From: Saccoglossus kowalevskii
Lineage: Eukaryota; Hemichordata; Enteropneusta; Harrimaniidae
Direction: 5' to 3'
Assembly (NCBI RefSeq): GCF_000003605.2
Contig: NW_003147387.1
Location: forward strand, 1 to 41,925
DNA length: 41,925 nt
Every line of letters starts with the position of its first letter. Position 1 is the stretch's first letter. The notes beneath the pieces are model-generated. The model worked only from the letters and a program-made list of their open reading frames with translations. It ran no database searches and had not been told where the DNA came from. Of the stretch, positions 241 through 41,925 are shown piece after piece. The translations under genes were made by a program, and so were the position numbers.

Positions 241-296
241 CTAAAGATTTCCGTGTAGAGGAACAACTAATGAGTCTATAATCAAATTTTTGATAA

Positions 297-314: not shown

Positions 315-354
315 CGATAAATAAACAAATATTAGAAATAATTGAATCGGCAAC

Positions 355-12700: not shown

Positions 12701-12837
12701 ACATAGTACACAAAATCGAAAGATATTTGTTTTCCCACTTTACTCACCTTATCCGAAGTTGTGGTCACTGAAACGTATGTATTACACCACAACCATATGT
12801 CGAATTAACTCTGGTTTTTCTGCAGACCGCATAAATC
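9703..12837 (+). repeat. Satellite variant subgroup next to LINE A
   Basis: These monomers share linked differences from the upstream array: ctgcagACCGC instead of ctgcagGCCGC (from ~9910), accttcCgtag instead of accttcTgtag, ctttAaagtg, gagacgAtttt, and (from 10673) gcgtTtctc. The monomers at 10673-11642 and 11643-12612 show no difference I could find by eye, indicating recent duplication. The same linked variants mark the '-' strand monomers that touch LINEs C, D and E (26.9-27.9, 33.3-34.3 and 39.7-40.7 kb). Only ctttAaagtg also occurs alone elsewhere (near 6595). Confidence 0.8.
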
Positions 12838-14525: not shown

Positions 14526-14558
14526 CTCGTCATGCTTCACACCACCCTACCCCTTATT

Positions 14559-18332: not shown

Positions 18333-18352
18333 ATTTTTGGTGAGAAGAACTT

Positions 18353-19807: not shown

Positions 19808-19845
19808 GGCAACAGAGAGACAAAACAAAAAAGATGAAAACAGCA

Positions 19846-19860
19846 CGAGGCAAAGCCTCG
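19846..19860 (-). other. 5' UTR hairpin of LINE B (CGAGGC/GCCTCG)
   Basis: A perfect 6-bp stem with an AAA loop on the strand shown sits about 40 nt upstream of the ORF1 ATG. The identical hairpin is at 33187-33201 (LINE C) and 39579-39593 (LINE D). In B the element ends only 11 bp beyond it. A role in translation or as a reverse-transcription pause is possible but untested. Confidence 0.5.
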
Positions 19861-20248
19861 AGCAAGACAAGCAAACAAAAAACGGCGATGTTGAATTTTG
19901 CCCAAGCATACCCGGGCCTGATTAGACAGTCATGAAACCTGCCCGTCTGTGTAAACCCGCCCGATAGAGCCTGGCCATCGTCGAAATTTGGATACTGAAA
20001 GATTTGGTCATCTGAATATCGTACATATTCAGGTTGCCGATTCAATTATTTCTAATATTTGTTTATTTATCGCCCCGCAATTGAGCGGGGTTATCAAAAA
20101 TTTGATTATAGACTCATTAGTTGTTCCTCTGCACGGAAATCTTTAGTAAAAGGCGAAAGATTTATGCGGCCTGCAGAAAAACCAGAGTTAATTCGACATA
20201 TGGTTGTGGTGTAATACATACGTTTCAGTGACTACAACTTCGGATAAG

Positions 20249-20309
20249 GTGAGTAAAGTGGGAAAACAAATATCTTTCGATTTTGTGTACTATGTGTAAT
20301 TTCTTACAG
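20249..20309 (+). other. Intron-like segment in satellite (GTGAGT...TTACAG, 61 bp)
   Basis: On the strand opposite to the satellite orientation used above, each monomer carries AAG|GTGAGT, a full consensus 5' splice site, and 61 bp later TTTCTTACAG|A, a good 3' splice site. The spacing suits a small invertebrate-type intron. The signal recurs in essentially every monomer of both arrays, though a single base insertion affects the acceptor-side flank near 8863. It may be a real intron of a transcribed ancestor, or a chance match preserved only because the satellite is homogenised. Confidence 0.4.
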
Positions 20310-20675
20310 AAACTTAGGTGGTTTGTTATTAAAGGCTAGACAAATAATTATGTTATACAAAATACATTATGAGGAACGCTGCCTTGAATATGAGAAATAC
20401 ATAATTTGCCCCTGCTTTCTGACCAATAAACGTTTAAGTCGCGCTCTATAGCGACGATACTGTAACAATGTTGTTCAAAGTGAAAACCGTCTCGTCATTT
20501 CGGATATTATAATTAATCTTAGATTTCTTTTCGGCATAATGTCCAGTATGATTGTAACATTGTTTTAGCATATAGCACTTCAAAGTTTAGCTGCCAGTCA
20601 GTACAAACTGTTGATAGTCAACAATGTAATTAATAGTTTACCTTCATGATTTTTTTTAATAACTTGCCCTTTCAG

Positions 20676-20774
20676 TCGACAGCTACTTCAACATATCCCT
20701 GTATCCGCTGGTGGAGGGCGCAACTCGTGCGAATTTGATGAGCTATCAAACCAAAGTGTAAATTTCTACAGAAG
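20676..20774 (+). other. Exon-like open segment in satellite (99 bp)
   Basis: The segment is bounded by a pyrimidine-rich acceptor (CTTGCCCTTTCAG) and a donor (AAG|GTCAGT). In one frame it reads RQLLQHIPVSAG(R/G)GRNSCE... without a stop and continues to VNFYR. That frame joins in phase to the frame after the 61-bp intron-like segment (NLGGLLLKARQIIM...). Two monomers have a G-for-A change in the GGTAGAGG stretch. No homologue was recognised. It is listed as a possible coding relic only. Confidence 0.25.
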
Positions 20775-23700: not shown

Positions 23701-26700
23701 ACAGATGCGCCAATTGGAAGTAATCTGTGAAATAAAAATGAAAAAAACAAACAAACAAAAAACGGCGATGTTGAATTTTGCCCAAGCATACCCGGGCCTG
23801 ATTAGACAGTCATGAAACCTGCCCGTCTGTTGTAAACCCGCCCGATAGAGCCTGGCCTTCGTCGAAATTTGGATACTGAAAGATTTGGTCATCTGAATAT
23901 CGTACATATTCAGGTTGCCGATTCAATTATTTCTAATATTTGTTTATTTATCGCCCCGCAATTGAGCGGGGTTATCAAAAATTTGATTATAGACTCATTA
24001 GTTGTTCCTCTGCACGGAAATCTTTAGTAAAAGGCGAAAGATTTATGCGGCCTGCAGAAAAACCAGAGTTAATTCGACATATGGTTGTGGTGTAATACAT
24101 ACGTTTCAGTGACTACAACTTCGGATAAGGTGAGTAAAGTGGGAAAACAAATATCTTTCGATTTTGTGTACTATGTGTAATTTCTTACAGAAACTTAGGT
24201 GGTTTGTTATTAAAGGCTAGACAAATAATTATGTTATACAAAATACATTATGAGGAACGCTGCCTTGAATATGAGAAATACATAATTTGCCCCTGCTTTC
24301 TGACCAATAAACGTTTAAGTCGCGCTCTATAGCGACGATACTGTAACAATGTTGTTCAAAGTGAAAACCGTCTCGTCATTTCGGATATTATAATTAATCT
24401 TAGATTTCTTTTCGGCATAATGTCCAGTATGATTGTAACATTGTTTTAGCATATAGCACTTCAAAGTTTAGCTGCCAGTCAGTACAAACTGTTGATAGTC
24501 AACAATGTAATTAATAGTTTACCTTCATGATTTTTTTAATAACTTGCCCTTTCAGTCGACAGCTACTTCAACATATCCCTGTATCCGCTGGTAGAGGGCG
24601 CAACTCGTGCGAATTTGATGAGCTATCAAACCAAAGTGTAAATTTCTACAGAAGGTCAGTGCCCGGCCACAAAGATCCGCCAATTGGAAGTAATCTGTGA
24701 AATAAAAATGAAAAAAACAAACAAACAAAAAACGGCGATGTTGAATTTTGCCCAAGCATACCCGGGCCTGATTAGACAGTCATGAAACCTGCCCGTCTGT
24801 TGTAAACCCGCCCGATAGAGCCTGGCCATCGTCGAAATTTGGATACTGAAAGATTTGGTCATCTGAATATCGTACATATTCAGGTTGCCGATTCAATTAT
24901 TTCTAATATTTGTTTATTTATCGCCCCGCAATTGAGCGGGGTTATCAAAAATTTGATTATAGACTCATTAGTTGTTCCTCTGCACGGAAATCTTTAGTAA
25001 AAGGCGAAAGATTTATGCGGCCTGCAGAAAAACCAGAGTTAATTCGACATATGGTTGTGGTGTAATACATACGTTTCAGTGACCACAACTTCGGATAAGG
25101 TGAGTAAAGTGGGAAAACAAATATCTTTCGATTTTGTGTACTATGTGTAATTTCTTACAGAAACTTAGGTGGTTTGTTATTAAAGGCTAGACAAATAATT
25201 ATGTTATACAAAATACATTATGAGGAACGCTGCCTTGAATATGAGAAATACATAATTTGCCCCTGCTTTCTGACCAATAAACGTTTAAGTCGCGCTCTAT
25301 AGCGACGATACTGTAACAATGTTGTTCAAAGTGAAAACCGTCTCGTCATTTCGGATATTATAATTAATCTTAGATTTCTTTTCGGCATAATGTCCAGTAT
25401 GATTGTAACATTGTTTTAGCATATACGCACTTCAAAGTTTAGCTGCCAGTCAGTACAAACTGTTGATAGTCAACAATGTAATTAATAGTTTACCTTCATG
25501 ATTTTTTTAATAACTTGCCCTTTCAGTCGACAGCTACTTCAACACATCCCTGTATCCGCTGGTAGAGGGCGCAACTCGTGCGAATTTGATGAGCTATCAA
25601 ACCAAAGTGTAAATTTCTACAGAAGGTCAGTGCCCGGCCACAAAGATCCGCCAATTGGAAGTAATCTGTGAAATAAAAATGAAAACAAAAAACAAAAAAC
25701 GGCGATGTTCAATTTTGCCCAAGCTTACCCGGGCCTGATTAGACAGTCATGAAACCTGCCCGTCAGTTGTAAACCCGCCCGATAGACCCTAGCCATCGTC
25801 GAAATTTGGATACTGAAAGATTTGGTCATCTGAATATCGTACATATTCAGGTTGCCGATTCAATTATTTCTAATATTTGTTTATTTATCGCCCCGCAATT
25901 GAGCGGGGTTATCAAAAATTTGATTATAGACTCATTAGTTGTTCCTCTGAACGGAAATCTTTAGTAAAAGGCGAAAGATTTATGCGGCCTGCAGAAAAAC
26001 CAGAGTTAATTCGACATATGGTTGTGGTGTAATACATACGTTTCAGTGACCACAACTTCGGATAAGGTGAGTAAAGTGGGAAAACAAATATCTTTCGATT
26101 TTGTGTACTATGTGTAATTTCTTACAGAAACTTAGGTGGTTTGTTATTAAAGGCTAGACAAATAATTATGTTATACAAAATACATTATGAGGAACGCTGC
26201 CTTGAATATGAGAAATACATAATTTGCTCCTGCTTTCTGACCAATAAACGTTTAAGTCGCGCTCTATAGCGACGATACTGTAACAATGTTGTTCAAAGTG
26301 AAAACCGTCTCGTCATATCGGATATTATAATTAATCTTAGATTTCTTTTCGGCATAATGTCCAGTATGATTGTAACATTGTTTTAGCATATAGCACTTCA
26401 AAGTTTAGCTGCCAGTCAGTACAAACTGTTGATAGTCAACAATGTAATTAATAGTTTACCTTCATGATTTTTTTAATAACTTGCCCTTTCAGTCGACAGC
26501 TACTTCAACATATCCCTGTATCCGCTGGTAGAGGGCGCAACTCGTGCGAATTTGATGAGCTATCAAACCAAAGTGTAAATTTCTACAGAAGGTCAGTGGC
26601 CGGCCACAAAGATCCGCCAATTGGAAGTAATCTGTGAAATAAAAATGAAAAAAACAAACAAACAAAAAACGGCGATGTTGAATTTTGCCCAAGCATACCC

Positions 26701-27914
26701 GGGCCTGATTAGACAGTCATGAAACCTGCCCGTCTGTTGTAAACCCGCCCGATAGAGCCTGGCCATCGTCGAAATTTGGATACTGAAAGATTTGGTCATC
26801 TGAATATCGTACATATTCAGGTTGCCGATTCAATTATTTCTAATATTTGTTTATTTATCGCCCCGCAATTGAGCGGGGTTATCAAAAATTTGATTATAGA
26901 CTCATTAGTTGTTCCTCTGCACGGAAATCTTTAGTAAAAGGCGAAAGATTTATGCGGCCTGCAGAAAAACCAGAGTTAATTCGACATATGGTTGTGGTGT
27001 AATACATACGTTTCAGTGACCACAACTTCGGATAAGGTGAGTAAAGTGGGAAAACAAATATCTTTCGATTTTGTGTACTATGTGTAATTTCTTACAGAAA
27101 CTTAGGTGGTTTGTTATTAAAGGCTAGACAAATAATTATGTTATACAAAATACATTATGAGAAACGCTGCCTTGAATATGAGAAATACATAATTTGCCCC
27201 TGCTTTCTGACAATAAACGTTTAAGTCGCGCTCTATAGCGACGATACTGTAACAATGTTGTTCAAAGTGAAAATCGTCTCGTCATTTCGGATATTATAAT
27301 TAATCTTAGATTTCTTTTCGGCATAATGTCCAGTATGATTGTAACATTGTTTTAGCATATAGCACTTTAAAGTTTAGCTGCCAGTCAGTACAAACTGTTG
27401 ATAGTCAACAATGTAATTAATAGTTTACCTTCATGATTTTTTTAATAACTTGCCCTTTCAGTCGACAGCTACTTCAACATATCCCTGTATCCGCTGGTAG
27501 AGGGCGCAACTCGTGCGAATTTGATGAGCTATCAAACCAAAGTGTAAATTTCTACGGAAGGTCAGTGCCCGGCCACAAAGATCCGCCAATTGGAAGTAAT
27601 CTGTGAAATAAAAATGAAAAAAAACAAACAAACAAAAAACGGCGATGTTGAATTTTGCCCAAGCATACCCGGGCCTGATTAGACAGTCATGAAACCTGCC
27701 CGTCTGTTGTAAACCCGCCCGATAGAGCCTGGCCATCGTCGAAATTTGGATACTGAAAGATTTGGTCATCTGAATATCGTACATATTCAGGTTGCCGATT
27801 CAATTATTTCTAATATTTGTTTATTTATCGCCCCGCAATTGAGCGGGGTTATCAAAAATTTGATTATAGACTCATTAGTTGTTCCTCTGCACGGAAATCT
27901 TTAGTAAAAGGCGA

Positions 27915-28183
27915 TTTTTAGTTTGTAGGAAAAATCAATTTAACTTATCTTGAAACAGATGTGCAGAGGATCAAACATATACAAATGAACTGCAGGAGCC
28001 TCCTACTAGCAGGCTGGTCTCACCAGTTCTCGCCACAAGAGGGTACGATCCTCCCTACTGTAAAACTCCTGCTGAAATTAAATATTTAGGGAACAAATGT
28101 GTTGTACTTGGAGGGATGTATCGAGAAAAGTTAACTCGAAAAGTTGAATAGATCAGGCATAGAATAGTGGTTACAAGACAAAT
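27915..28183 (-). promoter_or_regulatory. LINE C 3' UTR
   Basis: This 269-bp region lies between the ORF2 stop and the target junction. It contains a block (about 27990-28075) partly shared with the otherwise diverged LINE E 3' UTR: a GCAGGAGCCTCCT-like stretch, then GCAGGCTGGTCTCACCA, then a CGATCCTCCCTACTG-like stretch. It includes a potential short stem AGCCT/AGGCT. A conserved 3' UTR block is what an RT would need to recognise template RNA during target-primed reverse transcription; that role is inferred. The extreme 3' end reads ...CTAAAAA in sense. Confidence 0.65.
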
Positions 28184-31100
28184 TCATGACAAAATGGTGG
28201 CATACCCAGTCTGTGTTTTTTGGACGACAGGACCCCATCTGAAGAAGAAATCTGGTCTTGCCAAACGGAGAAAATCAGTTTTCAAACGTGTTTTAATAGA
28301 GATCTTTACTTGTTGCAATAGTTGGTCCTGAGAAAGATGAATATTTTCAAATGCCGATTTGCATCGAGACTTCCAGATGTGCAATTTGACGATGTTAATC
28401 AAATAGAGTGCTGTACTCGATGGAAAGGATGAAGGTGACGCATCAGATATGCTATAGAAAATTAAGTTCAGATCACAAGCAGATATAATATTGAACCATT
28501 TAAAGAACAAATTATCCAGCCAAGACCACAAGAAAGCGGCAAGGTGGCAGGTGATGAACATGTGAATCATAGTTTCAGGGGAAGTACAGGTCGCACGTGG
28601 GCATTTGGAACATGAAACATATCCCCATTTGTGCATTACTGATGTTGTAACGACAGCACGGTGAACAATTTTCCAGGACAGACAGATCATATTGTTTTCC
28701 AGAATACACGAGTGCATACGATGCCAAATCAAAGGCCAGTCAAGGTTCGGGTTTTCTCCCACGACCTTTGGGTAGATTACCGTATTTCTGGAGAGGTGAT
28801 CGGACAATTCTCTAGTTGATGATGTCTCCCAGTTGATGCTTGGGCTTTTCCTCATGATCTGTTTAACCAATTCAGTTGTTGTTTTGTACCAAACTGGGCA
28901 CGATTCAAAGTGAGGACTAGAATTAGACCAAAGGTGAGGAAGATAGCGTCTGAGTTCAGAGGCACAGTATGCTGTGAAATAAAGGTTGCAAGGTTTAGTC
29001 TGAAAAGAGATTTTTATGCTTTTCAGAAGAAGTGACATAGCTTTTGAGGGCAGATGTGATAGGCCCCAACCACCCTTTTCCTTCGGTAAGCAGATCACAT
29101 CTCTTCGGACGTGTTCTTTGCGTCCTCCCCAAAAAAAACCCAAAGATATCGGCCATGATTGACTTCCTAATTGGAAGGGGGCAGGGGAAGAGAGGAGCAA
29201 TATAGAAAAAGAGTGGCAAAGCAACAGAGTTCAGAAGAGTTGTCTTACCGGCATAAGTGAGATTTCTTGATTTCCAAGAATTTAGCACATGCTTCAGTTT
29301 GATTTGCCGATCATACCAATTCAAAGCAGACATATCAGAATTTGAAATCCAGACACCGTTAACTTTTAGTTTATTGCTGTTAAAGGTGAATTGGCAAGGC
29401 GAGTCACTACGGTGCTTCCACCTGCCAAGCCACAGACCTTTGCACTTAGATTTATTCAGACAAGAGCCCGAGGCTTTAGAAAATCTATCAGACAACATGA
29501 TAAGGTGGTTGAGAGATGACAGGTCCGATAGTGAGGCTGTATTATCATCAGCATACTGCACAAGCTTACACTCATCAGTTGATCCAGGAAGGTAAAAGCC
29601 CTTGATCTTTTGGCAGTTCCTCACAGCGGCTGCAAATGGCTCGATGAATAGCACATAAAGCAGGGGAGAAAGAGGGCATCCTTGGCGAACTCCTCTAGAT
29701 AACATGATGGGGGGTGACAAATGACCATTAACCAGAACAGAGCTGGTGATACCATTATACAGACATGATATGAAGTGACTGAATTGGGGACCAAAATTCA
29801 TACGAAAAAGAACTTTGTGCAGAAAACTCCATTCCACCTGGTCAAAGGCTTTCTGTTGGTCCAATGAGATAAGCAGACCTGACATATTACGATCATTAGC
29901 ATGAAACACAATATCACGGATGATCTGAATGTTTTCTTGGATCGATCTTCCAGAGACACCACATGTTTGAAAGGGAGATAACAGACTAGAGATGACAGGT
30001 TTCAGGCGGTTACAGAGAGATTTGGAGATCAGCTTGTAGTCCACATTCAAAAGCGATATAGGACGTTTGTTCTTTGGATCGAGGTGAGAGTTTTCATTGC
30101 CAGGTTTGGTGACATCAATATCCTTATTGATAAGGGTGATGACGCCTTTCTTTTGAGATGAAGAAAGATGACCCGAAGAAAGCTCTTCATTGATGACGTC
30201 AGTCAGATCATATTTCAGAAAGTGCCAGCAATGAATATAAAATTCCTTTGGCAAACCATCCCTTCCGGGTGTTTTGTTGTTCTCCATGCCCCTAAGGGCA
30301 TGTTCAATTTCAGAAGTTTTCAGAGGTGATTCCAAAGAATCACGCTGGCTACTTGAAAGACTGTGAGTCACCTGTGAAAGAAAAAAATCCTGATCTTCTT
30401 CGTCAAGTGATGATTTAGAAGTGAACAGAGATGCATAGAAGTTGTGAATTGTATTCAAAATATTTTTCTGAGAATGGTGAATGTCTCCATTCGTGTCTCT
30501 GATGGCAGAAATTACTTTCCTTTTTCCGCGACGGCGTTCACGACCAAGAAAATAACGAGAGCACTTCTCATTTTCATCAAGATTCTGAACCCGCGCACGG
30601 ATTTTGGCGCCTTCGAGATTAGACATATTCAGGGAGTTGATTTGATCCCTTACAGAAGAATACTGCTCAAGGCTGGATTGGGACCGGTCCCCCTGATTCA
30701 GCTTGGACGTCAGATGCTGAAGCTTATCATTAAGATATTTAAGTTTGACCTTTCTTGCATGAGATTTTTGACAAGCATATGAAATGAGACAAGATTTACA
30801 ACGGTCTTTAACCATATCCCACCATTCACTGATGTTATCAAAGGCCGGCTTCAGAGTCTTCCATCTTTCATAGTCGTCTTCGATGGATCTTATAATCTCC
30901 GGATCCTGGAAGAGTGAGACGTTACATTTCCATACTCCAGGTCCCCGAGCAGGGGAATTAAAGGCTTTAAGCAGAATACATACAGCATCATGATCAGAAA
31001 GAGTGAAAGCAGAAATAGTCGCAGAAGATACATTCAGGGATGAAGATACATACAATCGGTCAATCCTAGATGAAACAGAGTTGTTCTTGTTGCGCCAGGT

Positions 31101-31673
31101 GAATTGTGATGTAGAAGGATGATGCTTTCGCCAAACATCCACAAGACTAAGTTCAGAGCAAAGATCACCCAACTCTAAGCCCCCTACATAGGAATGGGAG
31201 CATGTTAGAGAACCTCCCAACTTGTCCATACTACTCTCAATACAATTAAAGTCCCCACCAAGAATCAGGGGGTAGTTACCTCCAAGAAATTGATGAAGCG
31301 AGTCAAGGAATTTTTTCCTCTGAGAAGGCATATTAGGAGCATACACAGAAATAACTTTAAAAAGGTTTGTGTTCCACTTCACAACACTTGATACCACTCT
31401 GCCACTATCATCAGAAACCGCGTTGTCAAATGAAACATTACATTTCGGTGAAAGGAGGATCCCCACACCTCTGCTGTTGTTCGAGCCGAGACTCCATATC
31501 GCACTACCACCCCATTCTCTCTCCCACTGCTTTCCTTCCTCAAGAGAACAGACATGTGCCTCCTGGACAAGGATGATATCAAAGTTAGATTCATGACAGT
31601 ATTTGAAAAAAAGAGACCTTTTCATATAATCTTTTAAACCATTTATGTTTATTGAAATAATAGAGACAGACAT
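28184..31673 (-). CDS. LINE C ORF2: endonuclease-reverse transcriptase (~1162 aa, one frameshift)
   Basis: This would be the enzyme that nicks the satellite and reverse-transcribes element RNA. Endonuclease (1-~235): NINGL, E38 in VQEAHV, Y111, D141/N143 in GGDFN, R203/D205 in SRIDR and D227/H228 in SDHD. A linker with a basic segment follows (~300-390). RT (~500-800): LINK, NKRPISLLNVDYK, D605 in [23 protein letters not shown] and YADD at 707-710. The C-terminal region has C-X4-C-X7-H-X4-C (CPRATC...HMFITC), a motif common in LINE ORF2s. One extra T in an 8-T run (29131-29138, A's on the + strand) shifts the frame at residue ~847; the rest continues open to 28184. The total length, 3490 nt, equals 1163 codons plus one base. 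It starts 20 nt after the ORF1 stop, in another frame. The frameshift may be real or a homopolymer sequencing error. Confidence 0.92.
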
Positions 31674-31693
31674 ATTTTTGGTGAGAAGAACCT

Positions 31694-33148
31694 TTATTTC
31701 GTAAAATAATCATCAAAATAGCTGGATTCTTTGTTCAGAACCCATTGTGGGTGGGCTTCGCAACAGTGGACGAGCCACTCGGATGGCGTGACAGACACCG
31801 CTTCACATGCTTCGACAGGGCAGAGCAGTTGCACCGTGTCCAGAAAAGAGTGGTGAGCTTGGAGATGAGAAACCAGGGCAGGCCATCCAGTAAATTCGCT
31901 ATTGCAGTCCGCATCAGACACTCGGTGACATGTAACTTCCACCTGGTTCAGTTTGTGGAGGCGAGAATCTCTTGTCCTCGACAAGGCAGCCTTAGTTTCA
32001 GTATTCACATTCGGTGTGTTTAGACTTTGTTCGTCAGCACTGGTGAAGCTCTCGCAATCAGAAACAATAGTGACATCGTGTGAAAAGCCAGGGACCCTAG
32101 TTCGTTTATGATCTTCAGTGGAGGGAACATAGTCATCTTCTGCTGGGCGTTTTCCGCTAGCAAGATGGGGAAGAATAGGAGCTTCAGCCACCATATCAGA
32201 AATGTCTTCAGGTTCACTACCAACAGTTTCAGATGGTGATACACTGGCGGGTGAAGAAGAGATGGCGCCTGGACCAGAAGTAGTTTTCGCAGAATCATGT
32301 TTAGAAATAGGCAAGATCGGAGGAGAATCGTAATTCATATCAGATTGAACCGGACAGGCAGGTGAGATTACAGGGTCAGTGATATTAGCCGAATCAGCTG
32401 GAGAGGTATCATGGACAGGTTTGTCAGGAGCAGGATCAGATGTCCGGCTTGCTTGTGGTGCTGTGGACCACTTGTTCAGAACACTGGCTTTGTTCGCAAA
32501 AGAGACTTTACATTGGCGGAAGTTGTGCCCGTTTTCATGGCACACAGTACACTTTATGTCATTGGTACAGTTGTCAATAGAGTGGCCAACTCCAAGACAG
32601 CGAAAGCAAACTATTTCCTTGCATTCTTTAGCAAAGTGATCAACTCCGTGACAGCGGGCACAGATTTTAGGCTGACCGGGATAAGAAATCCAAACATTTC
32701 TGTTACAGATCCGTAGACGGGGAGGAATATTTCCCCCCAATTTAACTTTATATTGACGAATTCCATTAAAGCAAGTAGGAAACTCAGAGTAGACGCATTT
32801 TCGTGCAGCAAGAACCTTTCCAAATCTAGATAAAGCATGTTGCATGTATGAGTCATCTAGATCATTGCCCACGTATGAGGCAGTGACGATAGTGGATTCT
32901 TCATATGAAGATGAGGAACAGTCTGCTGAGGCAGCAATTTTCTCTTCAAAATTTCTTCTGAAGGATAAGGAACGAAAGGTGACATCATATTTTGACGGAC
33001 CAAGCTTTTCAACAGCTTCCAAGTGAAGCTTCACATCAATGTCGAAGGATTTTAAATAATCAAACACCTGTTTAGGTGTTGCAGATTCAGATTTTAAAAC
33101 CAAACAAAGAACTCTGTCTTTTCTGCCAATAGGCCGAATTCCAGCCAT
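31694..33148 (-). CDS. LINE C ORF1: gag-like zinc-knuckle protein (484 aa)
   Basis: This is an intact ORF1, the predicted RNA-binding partner of ORF2. The start is ATG at 33148 in the context TTGCCATGG; the frame is open further upstream from a TTG at 33283, but that lies in the 5' UTR and is not conserved in LINE A. Residues ~10-160 resemble paired RRM-like folds (VGNDLDDSYMQHALSRFGKVLAAR is typical). CCHC knuckles are at C163/C166/H171/C176, C181/C184/H189/C194 and C200/C203/H208/C213. A Ser/Pro/acidic middle (~220-400) is probably disordered. Two C-terminal C2H2-like motifs lie at C407/C415/H428/H433 and C443/C448/H461/H466, with the same spacings as in LINE A. These fingers are a candidate for nucleic-acid recognition. 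It ends DDYFTK, 20 nt before ORF2. Confidence 0.92.
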   Translation of the reverse strand: MAGIRPIGRKDRVLCLVLKSESATPKQVFDYLKSFDIDVKLHLEAVEKLGPSKYDVTFRSLSFRRNFEEKIAASADCSSSSYEESTIVTASYVGNDLDDSYMQHALSRFGKVLAARKCVYSEFPTCFNGIRQYKVKLGGNIPPRLRICNRNVWISYPGQPKICARCHGVDHFAKECKEIVCFRCLGVGHSIDNCTNDIKCTVCHENGHNFRQCKVSFANKASVLNKWSTAPQASRTSDPAPDKPVHDTSPADSANITDPVISPACPVQSDMNYDSPPILPISKHDSAKTTSGPGAISSSPASVSPSETVGSEPEDISDMVAEAPILPHLASGKRPAEDDYVPSTEDHKRTRVPGFSHDVTIVSDCESFTSADEQSLNTPNVNTETKAALSRTRDSRLHKLNQVEVTCHRVSDADCNSEFTGWPALVSHLQAHHSFLDTVQLLCPVEACEAVSVTPSEWLVHCCEAHPQWVLNKESSYFDDYFTK

Positions 33149-33340
33149 GGCAACAGAGAGACAAAACAAAAAAGATGAAAACAGCACGAGGCAAAGCCTC
33201 GAGCAAGACAAGTCCAATAACCAGCAAGCAAACTGAAGGCAGCAGCACACGTGAGAGGACAGCAGCGAATCAGAAAATATCAAACGATGATCAAAGCAAG
33301 AAGAGAATTACTTACAGGATCCAGTGACTTGGTAACAGCG
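33149..33340 (-). promoter_or_regulatory. LINE C 5' UTR
   Basis: A 192-bp leader, shared with LINE D, begins CGCTGTTACC at the satellite junction. It contains a strong donor-like CCT|GTAAGTAA (GT at 33315-33314) and an acceptor-like CTGCCTTCAG ending at 33233, which would define an 83-nt intron. A perfect hairpin CGAGGC/GCCTCG is at 33187-33201. A pyrimidine-rich run (TTTTTTGTTTTGTCTCTCTG) lies just before the ATG. Splicing and promoter functions are not demonstrated. It is unrelated in sequence to the LINE A leader. Confidence 0.6.
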
Positions 33341-34310
33341 AAGATTTATGCGGTCTGCAGAAAAACCAGAGTTAATTCGACATATGGTTGTGGTGTAATA
33401 CATACGTTTCAGTGACCACAACTTCGGATAAGGTGAGTAAAGTGGGAAAACAAATATCTTTCGATTTTGTGTACTATGTGTAATTTCTTACAGAAACTTA
33501 GGTGGTTTGTTATTAAAGGCTAGACAAATAATTATGTTATACAAAATACATTATGAGAAACGCTGCCTTGAATATGAGAAATACATAATTTGCCCCTGCT
33601 TTCTGACCAATAAACGTTTAAGTCGCGCTCTATAGCGACGATACTGTAACAATGTTGTTCAAAGTGAAAATCGTCTCGTCATTTCGGATATTATAATTAA
33701 TCTTAGATTTCTTTTCGGCATAATGTCCAGTATGATTGTAACATTGTTTTAGCATATAGCACTTTAAAGTTTAGCTGCCAGTCAGTACAAACTGTTGATA
33801 GTCAACAATGTAATTAATAGTTTACCTTCATGATTTTTTTAATAACTTGCCCTTTCAGTCGACAGCTACTTCAACATATCCCTGTATCCGCTGGTAGAGG
33901 GCGCAACTCGTGCGAATTTGATGAGCTATCAAACCAAAGTGTAAATTTCTACGGAAGGTCAGTGCCCGGCCACAAAGATCCGCCAATTGGAAGTAATCTG
34001 TGAAATAAAAATGAAAAAAACAAACAAACAAAAAACGGCGATGTTGAATTTTGCCCAAGCATACCCGGGCCTGATTAGACAGTCATGAAACCTGCCCGTC
34101 TGTTGTAAACCCGCCCGATAGAGCCTGGCCATCGTCGAAATTTGGATACTGAAAGATTTGGTCATCTGAATATCGTACATATTCAGGTTGCCGATTCAAT
34201 TATTTCTAATATTTGTTTATTTATCGCCCCGCAATTGAGCGGGGTTATCAAAAATTTGATTATAGACTCATTAGTTGTTCCTCTGCACGGAAATCTTTAG
34301 TAAAAGGCGA
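33341..34310 (-). repeat. Single satellite monomer between LINEs C and D (exactly 970 bp)
   Basis: This is one complete monomer, phased on the target site: it starts AAGATTTATGCGG and ends TAAAAGGCGA. It carries the second-variant markers (gcggTctgcag, gagAaacgc, gaaaAtcgtc, acttTaaagt, ctacGgaag). Because both of its ends are target sites, two adjacent monomers of the array are both occupied by LINEs. Confidence 0.97.
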
Positions 34311-34579
34311 TTTTTAGTTTGTAGGAAAAATCAATTTAACTTATCTTGAGACAGATGTGCAGAGGATCAAACATATACAAATGAACTGCAGGAGCCTCCT
34401 ACTAGCAGGCTGGTCTCACCAGTTCTCGCCACAAGAGGGTACGATCCTCCCTACTGTAAAACTCCTGCTGAAAATAAATATTTAGGGAACAAATGTGTTG
34501 TACTTGGAGGGATGTATCGAGAAAAGTTAACTCGAAAAGTTGAATAGATCAGCATAGAATAGTGGTTTACAAGACAAAT
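34311..34579 (-). promoter_or_regulatory. LINE D 3' UTR
   Basis: This region is almost identical to the LINE C 3' UTR (27915-28183), with a few changes such as cttgAgacag for cttgAaacag and gaaaAtaaat for gaaaTtaaat. It has the same AAAAA end at the satellite junction and the same GCAGGCTGGTCTCACCA block. Confidence 0.65.
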
Positions 34580-37500
34580 TCATGACAAAATGGCGGCATA
34601 CCCAGTCTGTGTTTTTGGACGACAGGACCCCATCTGAGAGAAATCTGGTCTTGCCAACGGTGAAATCAGTTTTCAAACGTGTTTTAATAGAGATCTTTAC
34701 TTGTTGCAATAGTTGGTCCTGAGAAAGATGAATATTTTCAAATGCCGATTTGCATCGAGACTTCCAGATGTGCAATTTGACGATGTTAATCAAATAGAGT
34801 GCTGTACTCGATGGAAAGGATGAAGGTGACGCATCAGATATGCTATAGAAAATTAAGTTCAGATCACAAGGAGATATAATATTGAACCATTTAAAGAACA
34901 AATTATCCAGCCAAGACCACAAGAAAGCGGCAAGGTGGCAGGTGATGAACATGTGAATCATAGTTTCAGGGGAAGTACAGGTCGCACGTGGGCATTTGGA
35001 ACATGAAACATATCCCCATTTGTGCATTACTGATGTTGTAACGACAGCACGGTGAACAATTTTCCAGGACAGACAGATCATATTGTTTTCCAGAATACAC
35101 GAGTGCATACGATGCCAAATCAAAGGCCAGTCAAGGTTCGGGTTTTCTCCCACGACCTTTGGGTAGGTTACCGTATTTCTGGAGAGGTGATCGGACAATT
35201 CTCTAGTTGATGATGTCTTCCAGTTGATGCTTGGGCTTTTCCTCACGATCTGTTTAACCAATTCAGTTGTTGTTTTGTACCAAACTGGGCACGATTCAAA
35301 GTGAGGACTAGAATTAGACCAAAGGTGAGGAAGATAGCGTCTGAGTTCAGAGGCACAGTATGCTGTGAAATAAAGGTTGCAAGGTTTAGTCTGAAAAGAG
35401 ATTTTTATGCTTTTCAGAAGAAGTGACATAGCTTTTGTGAGCAGATGTGATAGGCCCCAACCACCCTTTTCCTTCGGTAAGCAGATCACATCTCTTCGGA
35501 CGTGTTCGTTGCGTCCTCCCCCAAAAAAACCCAAAGATATCGGCCATGATTGACTTCCTAATTGGAAGGGGGCAGGGGAAGAGAGGAGCAATATAGAAAA
35601 AGAGTGGCAAAGCAACAGAGTTCAGAAGAGTTGTCTTACCGGCATAAGTGAGATTTCTTGATTTCCAAGAATTGAGCACATGCTTCAGTTTGATTTGCCG
35701 ATCATACCAATTCAAAGCAGACATATCAGAATTTGAAATCCAGACACCGTTAACTTTTAGTTTATTGCTGTTAAAGGTGAATTGGCAAGGCGAGTCACTA
35801 CGGTGCCTCCACCTGCCAAGCCACAGACCTTTGCACTTAGATTTATTCAGACAAGAGCCCGAGGCTTTAGAAAATCTATCAGACAACATGATAAGGTGGT
35901 TGAGAGATGACAGGTCCGATAGTGAGGCTGTATTATCATCAGCATACTGCACGAGCTTACACTCATCAGTTGATCCAGGAAGGTAAAAGCCCTTGATCTT
36001 TTGGCAGTTCCTCACAGCGGCTGCAAATGGCTCGATGAACAGCACATAAAGCAGGGGAGAAAGAGGGCATCCTTGGCGAACTCCTCTAGATAACATAATG
36101 GGGGGGTGACAAATGACCATTAACCAGAACAGAGCTGGTGATACCATTATACAGACATGATATGAAGTGACTGAATTGGGGACCAAAATTCATACGAAAA
36201 AGAACTTTGTGCAGAAAACTCCATTCCACCTGGTCAAAGGCTTTCTGTTGGTCCAATGAGATAAGCAGGCCTGACATATTACGATCATTAGCATGAAACA
36301 CAATATCACGGATGATTTGAATGTTTTCTTGGATCGATCTTCCAGAGACACCACATGTTTGAAAGGGAGATAACAGACTAGAGATGACAGGTTTCAGGCG
36401 GTTACAGAGAGATTTGGAGATCAGCTTGTAGTCCACATTCAAAAGCGATATAGGACGTTTGTTCTTTGGATCGAGGTGAGAGTTTTCATTGCCAGGTTTG
36501 GTGACATCAATATCCTTATTGATAAGGGTGATGACGCCTTTCTTTTGAGATGAAGAAAGATGACCGGAAGAAAGCTCTTCATTGATGACGTCAGTCAGAT
36601 CATATTTCAGAAAGTGCCAGCAATGAATATAAAATTCCTTTGGCAAACCATCCCTTCCGGGTGTTTTGTTGTTCTCCATGCCCCTAAGGGCATGTTCAAT
36701 TTCAGAAGTTTTCAGAGGTGATTCCAAAGAATCACGCTGGCTACTTGAAAGACTGTGAGTCACCTGTGAAAGAAAAAAATCCTGATCTTCTTCGTCAAGT
36801 GATGATTTAGAAGTGAACAGAGATGCATAGAAGTTGTGAATTGTATTCAAAATATTTTTCTGAGAATGGTGAATGTCTTCATTCGTGTCTCTGATGGCAG
36901 AAATTACTTTCCTTTTTCCGCGACGGCGTTCACGACCAAGAAAATAACGAGAGCACTTCTCATTTTCATCAAGATTCTGAACCCGCGCACGGATTTTGGC
37001 GCCTTCGAGATTAGACATATTCAGGGAGTTGATTTGATCCCTTACAGAAGAATACTGCTCAAGGCTGGATTGGGACCGGTCCCCCTGATTCAGCTTGGAC
37101 GTCAGATGCTGAAGCTCATCATTAAGATATTTAAGTTTGACCTTTCTTGCATGAGATTTTTGACAAGCATATGAAATGAGACAAGATTTACAACGGTCTT
37201 TAACCATATCCCACCATTCACTGATGTTATCAAAGGCCGGCTTCAGAGTCTTCCATCTTTCATAGTCGTCTTCGATGGATCTTATAATCTCCGGATCCTG
37301 GAAGAGTGAGACGTTACATTTCCATACTCCAGGTCCCCGAGCAGGGGAATTAAAGGCTTTAAGCAGAATACATACAGCATCATGATCAGAAAGAGTGAAA
37401 GCAGAAATAGTCGCAGAAGATACATTCAGGGATGAAGATACATACAATCGGTCAATCCTAGATGAAACAGAGTTGTTCTTGTTGCGCCAGGTGAATTGTG

Positions 37501-38065
37501 ATGTAGAAGGATGATGCTTTCGCCAAACATCCACAAGACTAAGTTCAGAGCAAAGATCTCCCAACTCTAAGCCCCCTACATAGGAATGGGAGCATGTTAG
37601 AGAACCTCCCAACTTGTCCATACTACTCTCAATACAATTAAAGTCCCCACCAAGAATCAGGGGGTAGTTACCTCCAAGAAATTGATGAAGCGAGTCAAGG
37701 AATTTTTTCCTCCGAGAAGGCATATTAGGAGCATACACAGAAATAACTTTAAAAAGGTTTGTGTTCCACTTCACAACACTTGATACCACTCTGCCACTAT
37801 CATCAGAAACCGCGTTGTCAAATGAAACATTACATTTCGGTGAAAGGAGGATCCCCACACCTCTGCTGTTGTTCGAGCCGAGACTCCATATCGCACTACC
37901 ACCCCATTCTCTCTCCCACTGCTTTCCTTCCTCAAGAGAACAGACATGTGCCTCCTGGACAAGGATGATATCAAAGTTAGATTCATGACAGTATTTGAAA
38001 AAAAGAGACCTTTTCATATAATCTTTTAAACCATTTATGTTTACTGAAATAATAGAGACGGACAT
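34580..38065 (-). pseudogene. LINE D ORF2: endonuclease-reverse transcriptase with several frameshifts
   Basis: It starts at ATG 38065 (MSVSIISVN) and keeps all endonuclease motifs (VQEAHV, SVYAPN, GGDFN, SRIDR, SDHD) and RT motifs ([31 protein letters not shown]), but the frame is interrupted. A 7-G run at about 36101-36107 (6 G in C) shifts it between VNGHLSPP and MLSRGVRQ. The homopolymer near 35518-35528 (CCCCC then AAAAAAA) shifts it at GFFWG. Several small indels at 34610-34670 corrupt the last ~35 codons, so the open frame overruns to 34527 while the homologous stop is at 34580. The C-terminal CPRATC...HMFITC motif is present. This copy should be inactive unless the indels are sequencing errors. 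Confidence 0.9.
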
Positions 38066-38085
38066 ATTTTTGGTGAGAAGAACCT

Positions 38086-39540
38086 TTATTTCGTAAAATA
38101 ATCATCAAAATAGCTGGATTCTTTGTTCAGAACCCATTGTGGGTGGGCTTCGCAACAGTGGACGAGCCACTCGGATGGCGTGACAGACACCGCTTCACAT
38201 GCTTCGACAGGGCAGAGCAGTTGCACCGTGTCCAGAAAAGAGTGGTGAGCTTGGAGATGAGAAACCAGGGCAGGCCATCCAGTAAATTCGCTATTGCAGT
38301 CCGCATCAGACACTCGGTGACATGTAACTTCCACCTGGTTCAGTTTGTGGAGGCGAGAATCTCTTGTCCTCAACAAGGCAGCCTTAGTTTCAGTATTCAC
38401 ATTCGGTGTGTTTAGACTTTGTTCGTCAGCACTGGTGAAGCTCTCGCAATCAGAAACAATAGTGACATCGTGTGAAAAGCCAGGGACCCTAGTTCGTTTG
38501 TGATCTTCAGTGGAGGGAACATAGTCATCTTCTGCTGGGCGTTTTCCGCTAGCAAGATGGGGAAGAATAGGAGCTTCAGCCACCATATCAGAAATGTCTT
38601 CGGGTTCACTACCAACAGTTTCAGATGGTGATACACTGGCGGGTGAAGAAGAGATGGCGCCTGGACCAGAAGTAGTTTTCGCAGAATCATGTTTAGAAAT
38701 AGGCAAGATCGGAGGAGAATCGTAATTCATATCAGATTGAACCGGACAGGCAGGTGAGATTACAGGGTCAGTGATATCAGCCGAATCAGCTGGAGAGGTA
38801 TCATGGACAGGTTTGTCAGGAGCAGGATCAGATGTCCGGCTTGCTTGTGGTGCTGTGGACCACTTGTTCAGAACACTGGCTTTGTTCGCAAAAGAGACTT
38901 TACATTGGCGGAAGTTGTGCCCGTTTTCATGGCACACAGTACACTTTATGTCATTGGTACAGTTGTCAATAGAGTGGCCAACTCCAAGACAGCGAAAGCA
39001 AACTATTTCTTTGCATTCTTTAGCAAAGTGATCAACTCCGTGACAGCGGGCACAGATTTTAGGCTGACCGGGATAAGAAATCCAAACATTTCTGTTACAG
39101 ATCCGTAGACGGGGGGGAATATTTCCCCCCAATTTAACTTTATATTGACGAATTCCATTAAAGCAAGTAGGAAACTCAGAGTAGATGCATTTTCGTGCAG
39201 CAAGAACCTTTCCAAATCTAGATAAAGCATGTTGCATGTATGAGTCATCTAGATCATTGCCCACGTATGAGGCGGTGACGATAGTGGATTCTTCATATGA
39301 AGATGAGGAACAGTCTGCTGAGGCAGCAATTTTCTCTTCAAAATTTCTTCTGAAGGATAAGGAACGAAAGGTGACATCATATTTTGATGGACCAAGCTTT
39401 TCAACAGCTTCCAAGTGAAGCTTCACATCAATGTCGAAGGATTTTAAATAATCAAACACCTGTTTAGGTGTTGCAGATTCAGATTTTAAAACCAAACAAA
39501 GAACTCTGTCTTTTCTGCCAATAGGCCGAATTCCAGCCAT
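38086..39540 (-). CDS. LINE D ORF1: gag-like zinc-knuckle protein (484 aa)
   Basis: This is an intact ORF1 with the same start context (GCCATGG, ATG at 39540), length and architecture as LINE C: an RRM-like N-terminal region, three CCHC knuckles at residues 163-213 and two C2H2-like motifs at 407-433 and 443-466. Only a few substitutions separate it from C (for example KCIYSE for KCVYSE and ALLRTRD for ALSRTRD). A full-length ORF1 in three C-family copies next to damaged ORF2s indicates young copies. It ends 20 nt before ORF2, as in C. Confidence 0.92.
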   Translation of the reverse strand: MAGIRPIGRKDRVLCLVLKSESATPKQVFDYLKSFDIDVKLHLEAVEKLGPSKYDVTFRSLSFRRNFEEKIAASADCSSSSYEESTIVTASYVGNDLDDSYMQHALSRFGKVLAARKCIYSEFPTCFNGIRQYKVKLGGNIPPRLRICNRNVWISYPGQPKICARCHGVDHFAKECKEIVCFRCLGVGHSIDNCTNDIKCTVCHENGHNFRQCKVSFANKASVLNKWSTAPQASRTSDPAPDKPVHDTSPADSADITDPVISPACPVQSDMNYDSPPILPISKHDSAKTTSGPGAISSSPASVSPSETVGSEPEDISDMVAEAPILPHLASGKRPAEDDYVPSTEDHKRTRVPGFSHDVTIVSDCESFTSADEQSLNTPNVNTETKAALLRTRDSRLHKLNQVEVTCHRVSDADCNSEFTGWPALVSHLQAHHSFLDTVQLLCPVEACEAVSVTPSEWLVHCCEAHPQWVLNKESSYFDDYFTK

Positions 39541-39732
39541 GGCAACAGAGAGACAAAACAAAAAAGATGAAAACAGCACGAGGCAAAGCCTCGAGCAAGA
39601 CAAGTCCAATATCCAGCAAGCAAACTGAAGGCAGCAGCACACGTGAGAGGACAGCAGCGAATCAGAAAATATCAAACGATGATCAAAGCAAGAAGAGAAT
39701 TACTTACAGGATCCAGTGACTTGGTAACAGCG
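39541..39732 (-). promoter_or_regulatory. LINE D 5' UTR
   Basis: This 192-bp leader is nearly identical to that of LINE C, including the donor-like GTAAGTAA, the acceptor-like CTGCCTTCAG, the CGAGGC/GCCTCG hairpin at 39579-39593 and the pyrimidine run before the ATG. Sharing the complete leader with C supports full-length mobilisation or duplication. Confidence 0.6.
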
Positions 39733-40703
39733 AAGATTTATGCGGTCTGCAGAAAAACCAGAGTTAATTCGACATATGGTTGTGGTGTAATACATACGTT
39801 TCAGTGACCACAACTTCGGATAAGGTGAGTAAAGTGGGAAAACAAATATCTTTCGATTTTGTGTACTATGTGTAATTTCTTACAGAAACTTAGGTGGTTT
39901 GTTATTAAAGGCTAGACAAATAATTATGTTATACAAAATACATTATGAGAAACGCTGCCTTGAATATGAGAAATACATAATTTGCCCCTGCTTTCTGACC
40001 AATAAACGTTTAAGTCGCGCTCTATAGCGACGATACTGTAACAATGTTGTTCAAAGTGAAAATCGTCTCGTCATTTCGGATATTATAATTAATCTTAGAT
40101 TTCTTTTCGGCATAATGTCCAGTATGATTGTAACATTGTTTTAGCATATAGCACTTTAAAGTTTAGCTGCCAGTCAGTACAAACTGTTGATAGTCAACAA
40201 TGTAATTAATAGTTTACCTTCATGATTTTTTTATAACTTGCCCTTTCAGTCGACAGCTACTTCAACATATCCCTGTATCCGCTGGTAGAGGGCGCAACTC
40301 GTGCGAATTTGATGAGCTATCAAACCAAAGTGTAAATTTTTTACGGAAGGTCAGTGCCCGGCCACAAAGATCCGCCAATTGGAAGTAATCTGTGAAATAA
40401 AAATGAAAAAAACAAACAAACAAAAAACGGCGATGTTTGAATTTTGCCCAAGCATACCCGGGCCTGATTAGACAGTCATGAAACCTGCCCGTCTGTTGTA
40501 AACCCGCCCGATAGAGCCTGGCCATCGTCGAAATTTGGATACTGAAAGATTTGGTCATCTGAATATCGTACATATTCAGGTTGCCGATTCAATTATTTCT
40601 AATATTTGTTTATTTATCGCCCCGCAATTGAGCGGGGTTATCAAAAATTTGATTATAGACTCATTAGTTGTTCCTCTGCACGGAAATCTTTAGTAAAAGG
40701 CGA
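39733..40703 (-). repeat. Single satellite monomer between LINEs D and E (971 bp)
   Basis: This is one complete second-variant monomer, bounded on both sides by the LINE target site. Private indels include ttttttTataac near 40230, aattttttTacgg near 40337 and gatgtTTgaa near 40435, the last shifting the recurring short frame. It shows that three consecutive monomers carry LINEs. Confidence 0.96.
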
Positions 40704-40952
40704 TTTTTGATTTAGGAGGTTAAATCAATCAATCAATCATTCATCAAGAAGACGAAATGAGATTACAGGCCCCTCCTAGGCAGGCCAGCCTCGCTGGATC
40801 TCACCACATAAGACTTCGAGTCCTCCTGCCTGATGTTATGTAGCCTGAATGTCTATGGAAAAGTCCAAAAGCAACAGAAACAGAGATGTGTAACTTTGAA
40901 TTGATTGCGCTAATCGATGAACAGTAGTGATGCTGAGCTCGGGCCATTATGA
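40704..40952 (-). promoter_or_regulatory. LINE E 3' UTR
   Basis: It shares with the C/D 3' UTR a C/T-rich block in the same place (CAGGCCCCTCCTAGGCAGG, then GGATCTCACCACA, then CGAGTCCTCCTGCCTGATG on the strand shown), although flanking sequence differs. It ends with GATT repeats and five A's at the junction in sense. The shared block is a candidate RT-recognition structure. Confidence 0.55.
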
Positions 40953-41924
40953 TTAAGTTGGAGAACTGGGTTGATTGGTCAGGTGGAGTGGTTGCCAAAG
41001 GGAGACGTATTTCGCTCTGGAGAAACGCAGTTGATCAGTCTGGAGTCGTCTTTTGATGTCTTCATTGATGTTCAAAATGGCCGATTCAGATGACAAGTGG
41101 ATGTTTTCAAAGGCGGCTTTACATCTGGTCTTCCAAATATGGAGTTTAACTAAGTTAATGATGTAAAGGGCGGAGTTGTTGGGAAATGACGTGTGCACGG
41201 GGTCGGCTAAGCTGTAGATGATGAGGTTGGATGTACAGACGTTTAAGAGACCAAAGTGACGAAAAATGAAGCTTTCCACCCAAGACCATAGGGAAGCCGA
41301 AAAATCGCAAGAAATAAACATGTGATGTATTGTCTCTGGCATAGTACAAGAGAGACGAGGACACATTTGACTGGTGGCGTATCCCCATCTATGCATCATA
41401 ATGGTGGTGGTAAGTGCATTATGGATTATTCTCCAAGACAGGTCCCTCATGTTCATGTCCAGAAGGGGGGCATGAACTCTGTGCCAAATAGTGTTCCAGT
41501 CGAGACAGCCCTTCAACTCCATCACACGTGGGTATATAGAAGCTTGATTCAGGAGTAAGCCATATAATTCTTTCGTGGTGGCTTTATTGCAAATAATGTT
41601 GTTGTCCATTCTATGTACTGTACGAGCAAGGGTGATGATAGAAGCATACCAGGGAGGTTCCGGTGGGAAGTGTGGGCCAATGTTTGACCACATGTTCGGC
41701 AGAAGCCACCTGAGATCTGAGGCACAGTATGCCTTGGTGAAATAGCAGCAGGGACGATCATGGAAGCATGAGAAGACAGTTTTCAACAGCAGAGCATTTG
41801 CCATGCTGTGGAGATGTACGAGGCCCCAACCCCCCTTCGTCATAGGCAGATGAATAACATCGCGGCGGACCTTTTCCTTTCTTTCTTCCCCAAAGAAGCG
41901 GAATATATCAACTTGAATTTGTTT
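40953..41924 (-). CDS. LINE E ORF2 C-terminal part (323 aa, partial)
   Basis: The open frame runs from the window edge (codons from 41924) to the stop at 40953, so the true start lies outside. It corresponds to the region after the RT core: IFRFFGEERKEKVRRDVIHL aligns with the [18 protein letters not shown]-type segment of LINE C without a frameshift. This supports the C and D homopolymer indels being lesions or errors. KGGWGLVHL follows, then the C-terminal motif C-X4-C-X7-H-X4-C (CPRLSC...HMFISC), then NLVKLHIWKTRCKAAFENIHLS, closely matching the NIVKLHIWKSRCKSAFENIHLS segment of C. It ends RLQTDQLRFSRAKYVSLWQP. An internal ATG at 41843 is not a real start. The product would be the C-terminal domain of the endonuclease-RT. 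Confidence 0.88.
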   Translation of the reverse strand, partial: KQIQVDIFRFFGEERKEKVRRDVIHLPMTKGGWGLVHLHSMANALLLKTVFSCFHDRPCCYFTKAYCASDLRWLLPNMWSNIGPHFPPEPPWYASIITLARTVHRMDNNIICNKATTKELYGLLLNQASIYPRVMELKGCLDWNTIWHRVHAPLLDMNMRDLSWRIIHNALTTTIMMHRWGYATSQMCPRLSCTMPETIHHMFISCDFSASLWSWVESFIFRHFGLLNVCTSNLIIYSLADPVHTSFPNNSALYIINLVKLHIWKTRCKAAFENIHLSSESAILNINEDIKRRLQTDQLRFSRAKYVSLWQPLHLTNQPSSPT

Positions 41925-41925
41925 T

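Follow-up and report, generated by a model that had tools for sequence, protein, structure and literature searches.

Why do several LINE retrotransposons in one stretch of Saccoglossus kowalevskii DNA meet the surrounding ~970-bp repeat at the same base? The window, meaning the whole 41,925-nucleotide stretch that was analysed, had earlier been taken, in a sequence-only reading, to house a satellite-specific LINE lineage. The site specificity in that proposal stands, but the target is a different one: what repeats every ~970 bp is the gene for U5 snRNA, an RNA gene present in many copies, and its 24 RF00020 matches in the window (Rfam) rule out a satellite. We conclude with high confidence that the LINEs are non-LTR retrotransposons of the L1 group, in two families specific for U5 snRNA genes, equipped with an APE endonuclease and living in tandem U5 arrays.

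Two LINE families in a U5 gene array

The window contains the following features (family 1, fam1; family 2, fam2):

1..12837, + strand: tandem U5 snRNA gene array of ~970-bp units (RF00020; units map at 98.9-100% identity)
1167-1286 and 9896-10015, + strand: example U5 genes of this first array (Rfam RF00020)
12838..16990, + strand: LINE A, the 5' portion of a fam2 element, entering U5 after ATAAATC with TT lost (2 bp)
13080..14525, + strand: LINE A ORF1, 481 aa stop to stop, CCHC zinc knuckle PF00098 (Pfam)
14526..16013, + strand: LINE A ORF2, APE endonuclease PF03372; the reverse transcriptase (RT) runs on in other frames to 17005
16991..19871, - strand: LINE B, 5'-truncated fam1 copy beginning at fam1 nt 129; 3' part absent
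19864..27914, - strand: U5 snRNA gene array in reversed orientation (unit mapping, Rfam)
27915..33340, - strand: LINE C, fam1, 5,426 bp, both ends exact at the U5 site
28009..28058, - strand: LINE C conserved 50-nt 3' RNA element, a three-way junction (comparison across lineages)
28184..31673, - strand: LINE C ORF2 with APE endonuclease, RT and zf-RVT; +1 frameshift at 29127-29138
31694..33148, - strand: LINE C ORF1, 484 aa from a MAGI start to the stop, zinc-knuckle-like CX2CX4HX4C repeats (pattern by eye)
33341..34310, - strand: single U5 repeat unit separating D and C, with the U5 3' half and U5 5' half at opposite ends (unit mapping, Rfam)
34311..39732, - strand: LINE D, fam1, 5,422 bp, both ends exact at the U5 site; several frameshifts in ORF2
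39733..40703, - strand: single U5 repeat unit separating E and D (unit mapping)
40704..41925, - strand: LINE E, the 3' portion of a fam2 element that runs off the contig; its 3' end is exact at TCGCC of U5
40780..40829, - strand: LINE E conserved 50-nt 3' RNA element (comparison across lineages)

The final U5 gene of the first array is interrupted by LINE A, whose 3' part is lost where A fuses with B. The 5' end of B lies off the U5 site and joins spacer position 294 with an 8-bp overlap.

The LINEs fall into two families with 57.5% amino acid identity across endonuclease and RT. Family 1 comprises B, C and D, and family 2 comprises A and E, the two ends of one element type (contigs C191 and C2012). 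A division into three families, with A and E distinct, was hinted at by an endonuclease-only tree (A with P0001) and a C-terminal tree (E with C). We dropped it because C191 and C2012 join A and E in one element and longer trees pair fam1 with fam2.

Insertion at one base of U5 loop I

The LINEs share an insertion base on the 5' margin of U5 loop I, ATAAATCTT^TCGCC. Few parts of spliceosomal RNA are as conserved as this loop, so the target is to be expected in almost all eukaryotes. The sequence-only reading had put both junctions of C and D at one base, in one orientation and without gain or loss, the 3' junction of E at the same base, and the entry of A within 2 bp of it. Each placement was confirmed: C and D sit exactly between ATAAATCTT and TCGCC, E abuts TCGCC at 40704, and A begins at 12838 after ATAAATC, 2 bp short. 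The window has 21 copies of the intact 14-mer spanning the site (19 perfect and two with a single mismatch), where 0.32 would be expected at up to two mismatches, and since the junction also recurs at every readable 3' end on three contigs, it is not due to chance.

The earlier reading had asked for genomic copies to be tabulated, and we searched the 572-Mb host genome at the DNA level with the fam1 3' end, the fam2 3' end and the fam1 5' part. Close copies found with these queries were confined to three U5-array contigs: seven with the fam1 3' end (plus one relic), five with the fam2 3' end (plus two relic pieces) and eight with the fam1 5' part, 8/8 in U5 arrays (plus two relic pieces). All 12 readable 3' ends, spread over three contigs, lie at the U5 base before TCGCC in the gene's orientation, confining the genomic copies to one target base; because the three arrays, all from a single assembly, could be allelic or duplicated, the 12 insertions need not all be independent. 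Every relic lies on another contig, C1645, whose U5 array has decayed; one fam1 3' junction there can still be read as CTAAAAA followed directly by TCGCCTTTTACTAAAG. Searches of viral and other genome contig collections confirmed no relatives.

The 5' ends are nearly as regular, with 10 of 13 readable ones at the U5 site. Family 1 joins exactly after ATAAATCTT (6/6), and family 2 joins 2 bp short (4/4), after ATAAATC in two copies and ATTAATC in two. The remaining three belong to 5'-truncated copies joined off-site to upstream sequence with 4-10 bp overlaps. These three copies have three distinct 5' ends, and the sole readable 3' end among them is at the exact site.

Enzymes and coding state

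ORF2 carries PF03372, PF00078 and zf-RVT, with an APE/EEP-type endonuclease at its N terminus; no restriction-like endonuclease domain, the hallmark of Utopia, R2 and NeSL, was found with Pfam at 1e-3. The catalytic positions align with those of L1-EN. Human LINE-1 is not site-specific; its ORF2p (PDB 8uw3) has the same order of endonuclease and RT and matches them at E 2e-76. The AP-type endonuclease proposed earlier is thus borne out by domain, match and alignment alike, and these sequence comparisons support placing the LINEs in the L1 group with an APE-type endonuclease. CCHC zinc knuckles in ORF1 are a trait of the Tx1 clade and occur in LINE A ORF1 (PF00098); ORF1 of B and C has no Pfam match at 1e-3, the knuckle motif there being visible by eye alone. 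The listings of the 212 proteins retrieved include none named Tx1, limiting the placement to the L1 group.

Both ORFs are open in three fam2 copies. Between C and D, ORF1 and ORF2 ahead of the frameshift differ by 15 synonymous versus 8 nonsynonymous changes (P 3e-4); this bias and the open fam2 copies argue for an active history. Downstream of the frameshift the counts are 0 versus 6 (1 versus 10 across a longer stretch). The frameshift is a +1 slip at one homopolymer, common to C and D and absent from at least three other copies. The shared slip and the nonsynonymous changes behind it fit tandem duplication and favour C and D as simple tandem copies, whereas the synonymous bias before the slip disfavours it; the conclusion of site specificity is independent of either.

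A sister lineage in U1 genes and a shared 3' RNA element

The next-closest lineage, at 46% amino acid identity among the 50 of 1139 candidates scored in a protein search, sits inside U1 snRNA genes. These relatives are located in U1 tandem arrays, inserted in the first U1 stem-loop, and they too end at one base, the site being at U1 nt 36/37. They share with fam1 and fam2 a 50-nt 3' RNA element in which 14/14 pairs are kept in the three lineages, 5 of them with double (compensatory) changes. The element is visible because lineages were compared; the LINE C 3' end folded as a single sequence is unremarkable (z -0.56).

Proposed mechanism and the U5 sequence ahead of the LINEs

In the proposed mechanism, the ORF2 endonuclease would nick the bottom strand at GGCGA^AAGATTTAT, and the 3'-OH at the nick would prime reverse transcription of LINE RNA recognised through its conserved three-way junction. 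Each LINE has a U5 promoter upstream in the same orientation, so its RNA probably starts with the U5 5' half. That U5 end may pair with the target and yield the exact 5' joins. The copy number of the array would shield the host. A promoter-like block is common to the arrays and the isolated U5 gene (20/25 bases).

Column 968 of the U5 5' half-gene alignment bears on the RNA-borne U5 segment. It is A in 10/10 units before LINEs versus 9/41 elsewhere. The A variant is compatible with a conversion barrier too, in place of an RNA-borne segment, and we give close to an even chance to the alternative that it persists because a LINE blocks gene conversion, the element RNA carrying no U5 sequence. The isolated U5 gene also carries A, making A probably the older state, as that alternative would have it; against it, five of the ten units before LINEs are otherwise of plain consensus type, with A in 0/16 other such units, and the fixed, family-specific 5' joins fit a templated junction.

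Tentatively, and at a little less than that chance, we propose that an L1-group LINE clade radiated by switching among spliceosomal snRNA genes (with two families at U5 loop I and the sister at the first U1 stem-loop), keeping one 3' RNA tag for its RT, borrowing the snRNA promoter and using the snRNA 5' half in its RNA to template the exact 5' junction.

Array context and array amplification

Could the LINEs favour the chromatin or array context of any tandem snRNA repeat, with a short cleavage consensus alone fixing the base? We consider this improbable: relatives do occupy both U5 and U1 tandem arrays, and the isolated U5 gene (C4724) and a chance 14-mer (C4441) are empty, but these are only two sites, and the identical base was used 12/12 times within 970-bp units.

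Far less probable still is multiplication of one or a few random insertions by array amplification, with the shared base inherited, a reading aided by the slip common to C and D, a 58-bp internal deletion in both C191 and C2012 copies and the single subtype of the LINE-flanking window units, but opposed by two divergent families at the same base and orientation, the distinct 5' ends of the truncated copies beside the exact 3' end readable in one of them, a synonymous lean in many (not all) copy pairs, the exact relic junction and the sister's occupation of another snRNA gene. The scattered copies that would have counted against the earlier reading were not seen; array duplication may account for some copies, C and D included.

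Relation to known elements

R2 uses a restriction-like endonuclease, unlike the APE type of the U5 LINEs, and matches them more weakly, over the RT only (1.8e-15). Its lifestyle is similar, with a precise site, in 28S rDNA, within a multicopy RNA gene array (excerpts of PMC3706591). Keno, according to the excerpted text of PMC4640811, is likewise an APE-type LINE at one snRNA gene site, reported from animals including the lancelet; compared by description rather than sequence, it differs in targeting U2, where the present LINEs target U5 and their sister U1. The same excerpts describe several Utopia families within one snRNA gene array, the arthropod families without target-site duplication; Utopia differs in its restriction-like endonuclease and U2 target. 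Dada-U1 and Dada-U6 also target conserved snRNA genes but are DNA transposons with 6-7 bp duplications (excerpts of PMC3706591 and PMC8869645). The term 'U5 snRNA' has 0 occurrences in the main texts of those two papers.

As of 2015, the excerpted PMC4640811 text gives Keno and Utopia (U2), Dada-U1 and Dada-U6 as the only reported transposons targeting snRNA genes. The literature searched, with Repbase outside its scope, contained no U5-specific LINE, the known targets there being U2, U1 (DNA transposon) and U6; among snRNA genes, the LINE homes would then include U5 and U1 besides U2. With the three open fam2 copies, the 50-nt 3' RNA tag and the U1-targeting sister, target switching and recognition of the 3' RNA can be tested directly. 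With exact-base insertion in U5 and U1 genes, the LINEs look like natural tools for writing DNA into selected copies of strongly conserved genes, and they could provide an APE-type substitute for R2 where DNA is to be inserted at a defined site.

Seven 3'-flank pieces beside remoter LINEs (32-35% identity; C3736, 55% over 120 aa), which may miss the true ends, contained no snRNA. One mir-205 match, below the gathering score, lies in these pieces.

The LINEs target U5 snRNA genes

The ~970-bp repeat that the sequence-only reading took for a satellite is a spliceosomal RNA gene array, with a complete U5 gene (Rfam RF00020) inside each unit. RF00020 matches the window 24 times, 21 times at 86–99 bits and three times weakly at 40–45 bits; the weak matches lie at LINE 3' junctions, where the U5 5' half is replaced. 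On the Rfam structure line, the insertion base within U5, AUAAAUCUU^UCGCCUUUUAC, falls at loop I's 5' edge. Compared with one reference unit, the units show 98.3–100% identity. A 25-bp block some 65 bp upstream of U5 has 20 positions identical between the array and an isolated gene for U5 (contig C4724); it is a likely promoter element, presumably the PSE. The isolated gene (L019:5379–5497) lies outside the arrays, has the top U5 score seen (105.7 bits) and carries no LINE.

Layout of the window
to 12837, + strand: U5 units
from 12838: LINE A (family 2), fused tail to tail at 16990/16991 with LINE B (family 1, − strand)
to 27914, − strand: U5 units after LINE B
beyond 27914, in order: LINE C, a single unit, LINE D, a single unit, LINE E (cut at the contig end)

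The A/B fusion coincides with a flip of array orientation and is either an inversion or a misassembly. LINEs C and D are 5.4 kb each and 99.2% alike. Family 1 (B, C, D) and family 2 (A, E) share 57.5% identity across 811 aa, and at C191:2286–7710, C191:15460–20908 and C2012:19774–25220 A and E join as the two ends of a single element. ORF2 encodes APE endonuclease, RT and zf-RVT domains, and ORF1 of LINE A has a zinc knuckle. The closest solved relative is human L1 ORF2p (2e-76), with R2 far weaker (1.8e-15); the L1-EN catalytic positions are kept in the alignment. We take Tx1-clade membership to be plausible. Close to the family 1 5' end (nt 23–33; window 33308–33318, − strand) is a 5' splice-site-like string, CCTGTAAGTAA, and a fossil copy has a similar one, CCCGTAAGTAA.

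Insertion occurs at one exact base

We searched the host assembly (572 Mb, 4,830 contigs; the window is all 41,925 bp of C3795) and analysed two further array contigs, C191 (44.7 kb) and C2012 (32.5 kb), over their entire span. We located 42 exact copies of the 14-mer site: 15 on C191, 6 on C2012, 19 on C3795, and once each on C4441 and C4724. The C4441 occurrence is a chance site without U5, where the LINE is absent.

Across the three array contigs we count 16 whole or partial copies, nine of family 1 and seven of family 2. All 12 readable 3' ends (seven and five, respectively) adjoin TCGCC, confirming the earlier claim of junctions at a single base; the other four are unreadable at the A/B fusion (A and B) or at contig ends (two). 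Thirteen 5' ends are readable, with three lost at contig ends. All six complete family 1 copies begin directly after ATAAATCTT, and their family 2 counterparts (4/4) come after ATAAATC or ATTAATC, always 2 bp short. The remaining three belong to truncated copies, and 5' truncations of this kind are the usual residue of target-primed reverse transcription.

Truncated copies
LINE B: family 1 nt 129 joined to spacer 294, 8-bp overlap
C191:26149: family 1 nt 404 joined to spacer 414, 10-bp overlap, 3' end at the site
family 2 copy on C2012: nt 1323, joined ~44 bp inside a unit, TGAG common to both sides

Units that precede LINEs have one base in common. Column 968 of the unit alignment, ~13 bases short of the insertion point, has A in all 10 LINE-preceding units and in 9/41 others (Fisher 7e-6). 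Among units with no more than one further informative difference, the counts are 5/5 versus 0/16 (5e-5). Because the units are related, these P values overstate the significance. The isolated U5 gene also has A here. One reading is that the LINE RNA itself supplies the U5 5' half, which would also account for the fixed, family-specific 5' joins. The other, to which we give slightly less than even odds, is that the LINE protects the last bases against conversion to G.

Close copies found by DNA search lie in U5 arrays

Genome-wide DNA searches covered the 3' parts of both families and the 5' part of family 1. The 3' 600 bp of family 1 gave eight matches (8/8 candidates scored), seven of them close (98–100%) in the three arrays and the eighth a relic on contig C1645. 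For family 2, the 3' 600 bp gave seven, five close (99–100%) in arrays and two relic pieces on C1645, and 599 bp from the family 1 ORF1 start gave ten, eight close in arrays and two relic pieces on C1645. Every close match thus lies in a U5 array. The proposed site specificity is thereby strengthened, but its target is the U5 gene rather than a satellite. A protein search gave at least 58 matches, with 50 of 1139 candidates scored; among the matches listed, those reaching 48% identity all map to the three arrays or to C1645, the one exception being a 55% match over 120 residues on C3736.

The C1645 relics (784–797 kb, L035–L036) are pieces of both families at 64–92% nucleotide identity amid decayed U5-unit pieces. 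After the family 1 3' end at 793815 (− strand) comes TCGCCTTTTACTAAAGATTTCTGTGCAG; the 5' half of a decayed U5 gene stands ahead of family 1 nt 11 near 788494, and where the two meet some bases are absent. We read these relics as also sitting at U5, in a decayed fossil array. Because Rfam finds no U5 in the relic region, even at E 1, the evidence for this reading is the junction strings together with the unit pieces.

Array duplication probably explains only some copies

Could the copies share a junction through array duplication? For some this is likely, because C has a +1 homopolymer slip (29127–29138, T8G4) and D has one at the same place (T7G5), whereas the frame stays intact there in at least three further copies, and because of the changes behind the slip: 0 synonymous and 6 nonsynonymous (1 to 10 when a longer, partly misaligned stretch is counted). 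Pointing the other way, ORF1 and ORF2 before the frameshift show 15 synonymous against 8 nonsynonymous changes between C and D (dN/dS 0.15, P 3e-4). Pairs with at least 100 codons give 0.15–0.49 in family 1 and 0.14–0.62 in family 2, significance not being reached in every pair. Both ORFs are open in the family 2 copies C191:15460, C2012:25220 and C2012:32488, the contig end having cut off the 5' end of the last; no family 1 copy on the array contigs is fully open. Duplication cannot account for two families, differing truncations, relics and a sister LINE in U1 genes.

A sister LINE targets U1

The next-closest LINE in the genome (C876:11167–13797, C3935:8124–10079; 46% aa identity to family 1) is housed in tandem U1 snRNA arrays of ~792-bp units (L038, C876:8001–17000; L039, C3935:4001–10106), with nine RF00003 matches across the two loci, one a broken gene. 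Three copies or parts were seen. Both readable 3' ends adjoin U1 nt 37 (AGGCGG); the third copy, the second on C876, has lost its 3' end and is joined to spacer. At the only readable 5' end the LINE begins after U1 nt 32 (GATC), and four bases (ATGG) are absent between the U1 halves, which are seen in different copies. A degenerate relative at L049 (C4612:695220–695346), ending AAAAAT/AGGC, is perhaps a fossil U1 insertion.

In a 73-row tree, families 1 and 2 pair (SH-aLRT 95), joined by related proteins P0001 (92) and then P0014 (97); the U1 LINE plus P0002 (100) is sister (99) to this group. Family 1, P0001 and P0014 share a 9-residue RT insertion, seen in A as well; a length scan of 212 proteins, some without a match to the scan, flagged one other, P0169 (three shorter, different letters). 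The insertion is not private to U5 LINEs, since the U1 LINE has a 7-residue one at that place.

We conclude that these LINEs are U5 snRNA gene-specific, with a U1-specific sister. They belong with the site-specific APE LINEs. According to PMC4640811, the transposons known by 2015 to target snRNA genes were limited to Keno and Utopia (U2), Dada-U1 and Dada-U6, and 'U5 snRNA' has 0 occurrences in the main texts of PMC3706591 and PMC8869645. In the open-access literature searched, we found no U5-targeting LINE.

A shared 3' RNA element

Both families and the U1 LINE retain a three-way junction of 50 nt close to the 3' end. All 14 pairs form in all three lineages and five are altered on both sides, in an alignment of only three rows from which the structure was itself derived; 1/500 shuffles was equally good, and slid versions pair 19–49% of cells. 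The U1 LINE part with this element matches 22 further genome places at 81–84%. The three of these that were examined (L050, L051, L052) all belong to a short dispersed repeat that carries this 3' RNA core, so other mobile elements appear to use it too. The repeat is SINE-like, with ~280–290 bp shared (L050 masked in part). It terminates in AAATCAAAAATCACAATA, ACAAT repeats being present in 2/3, and apparently employs the U5/U1 LINE clade's 3' tail.
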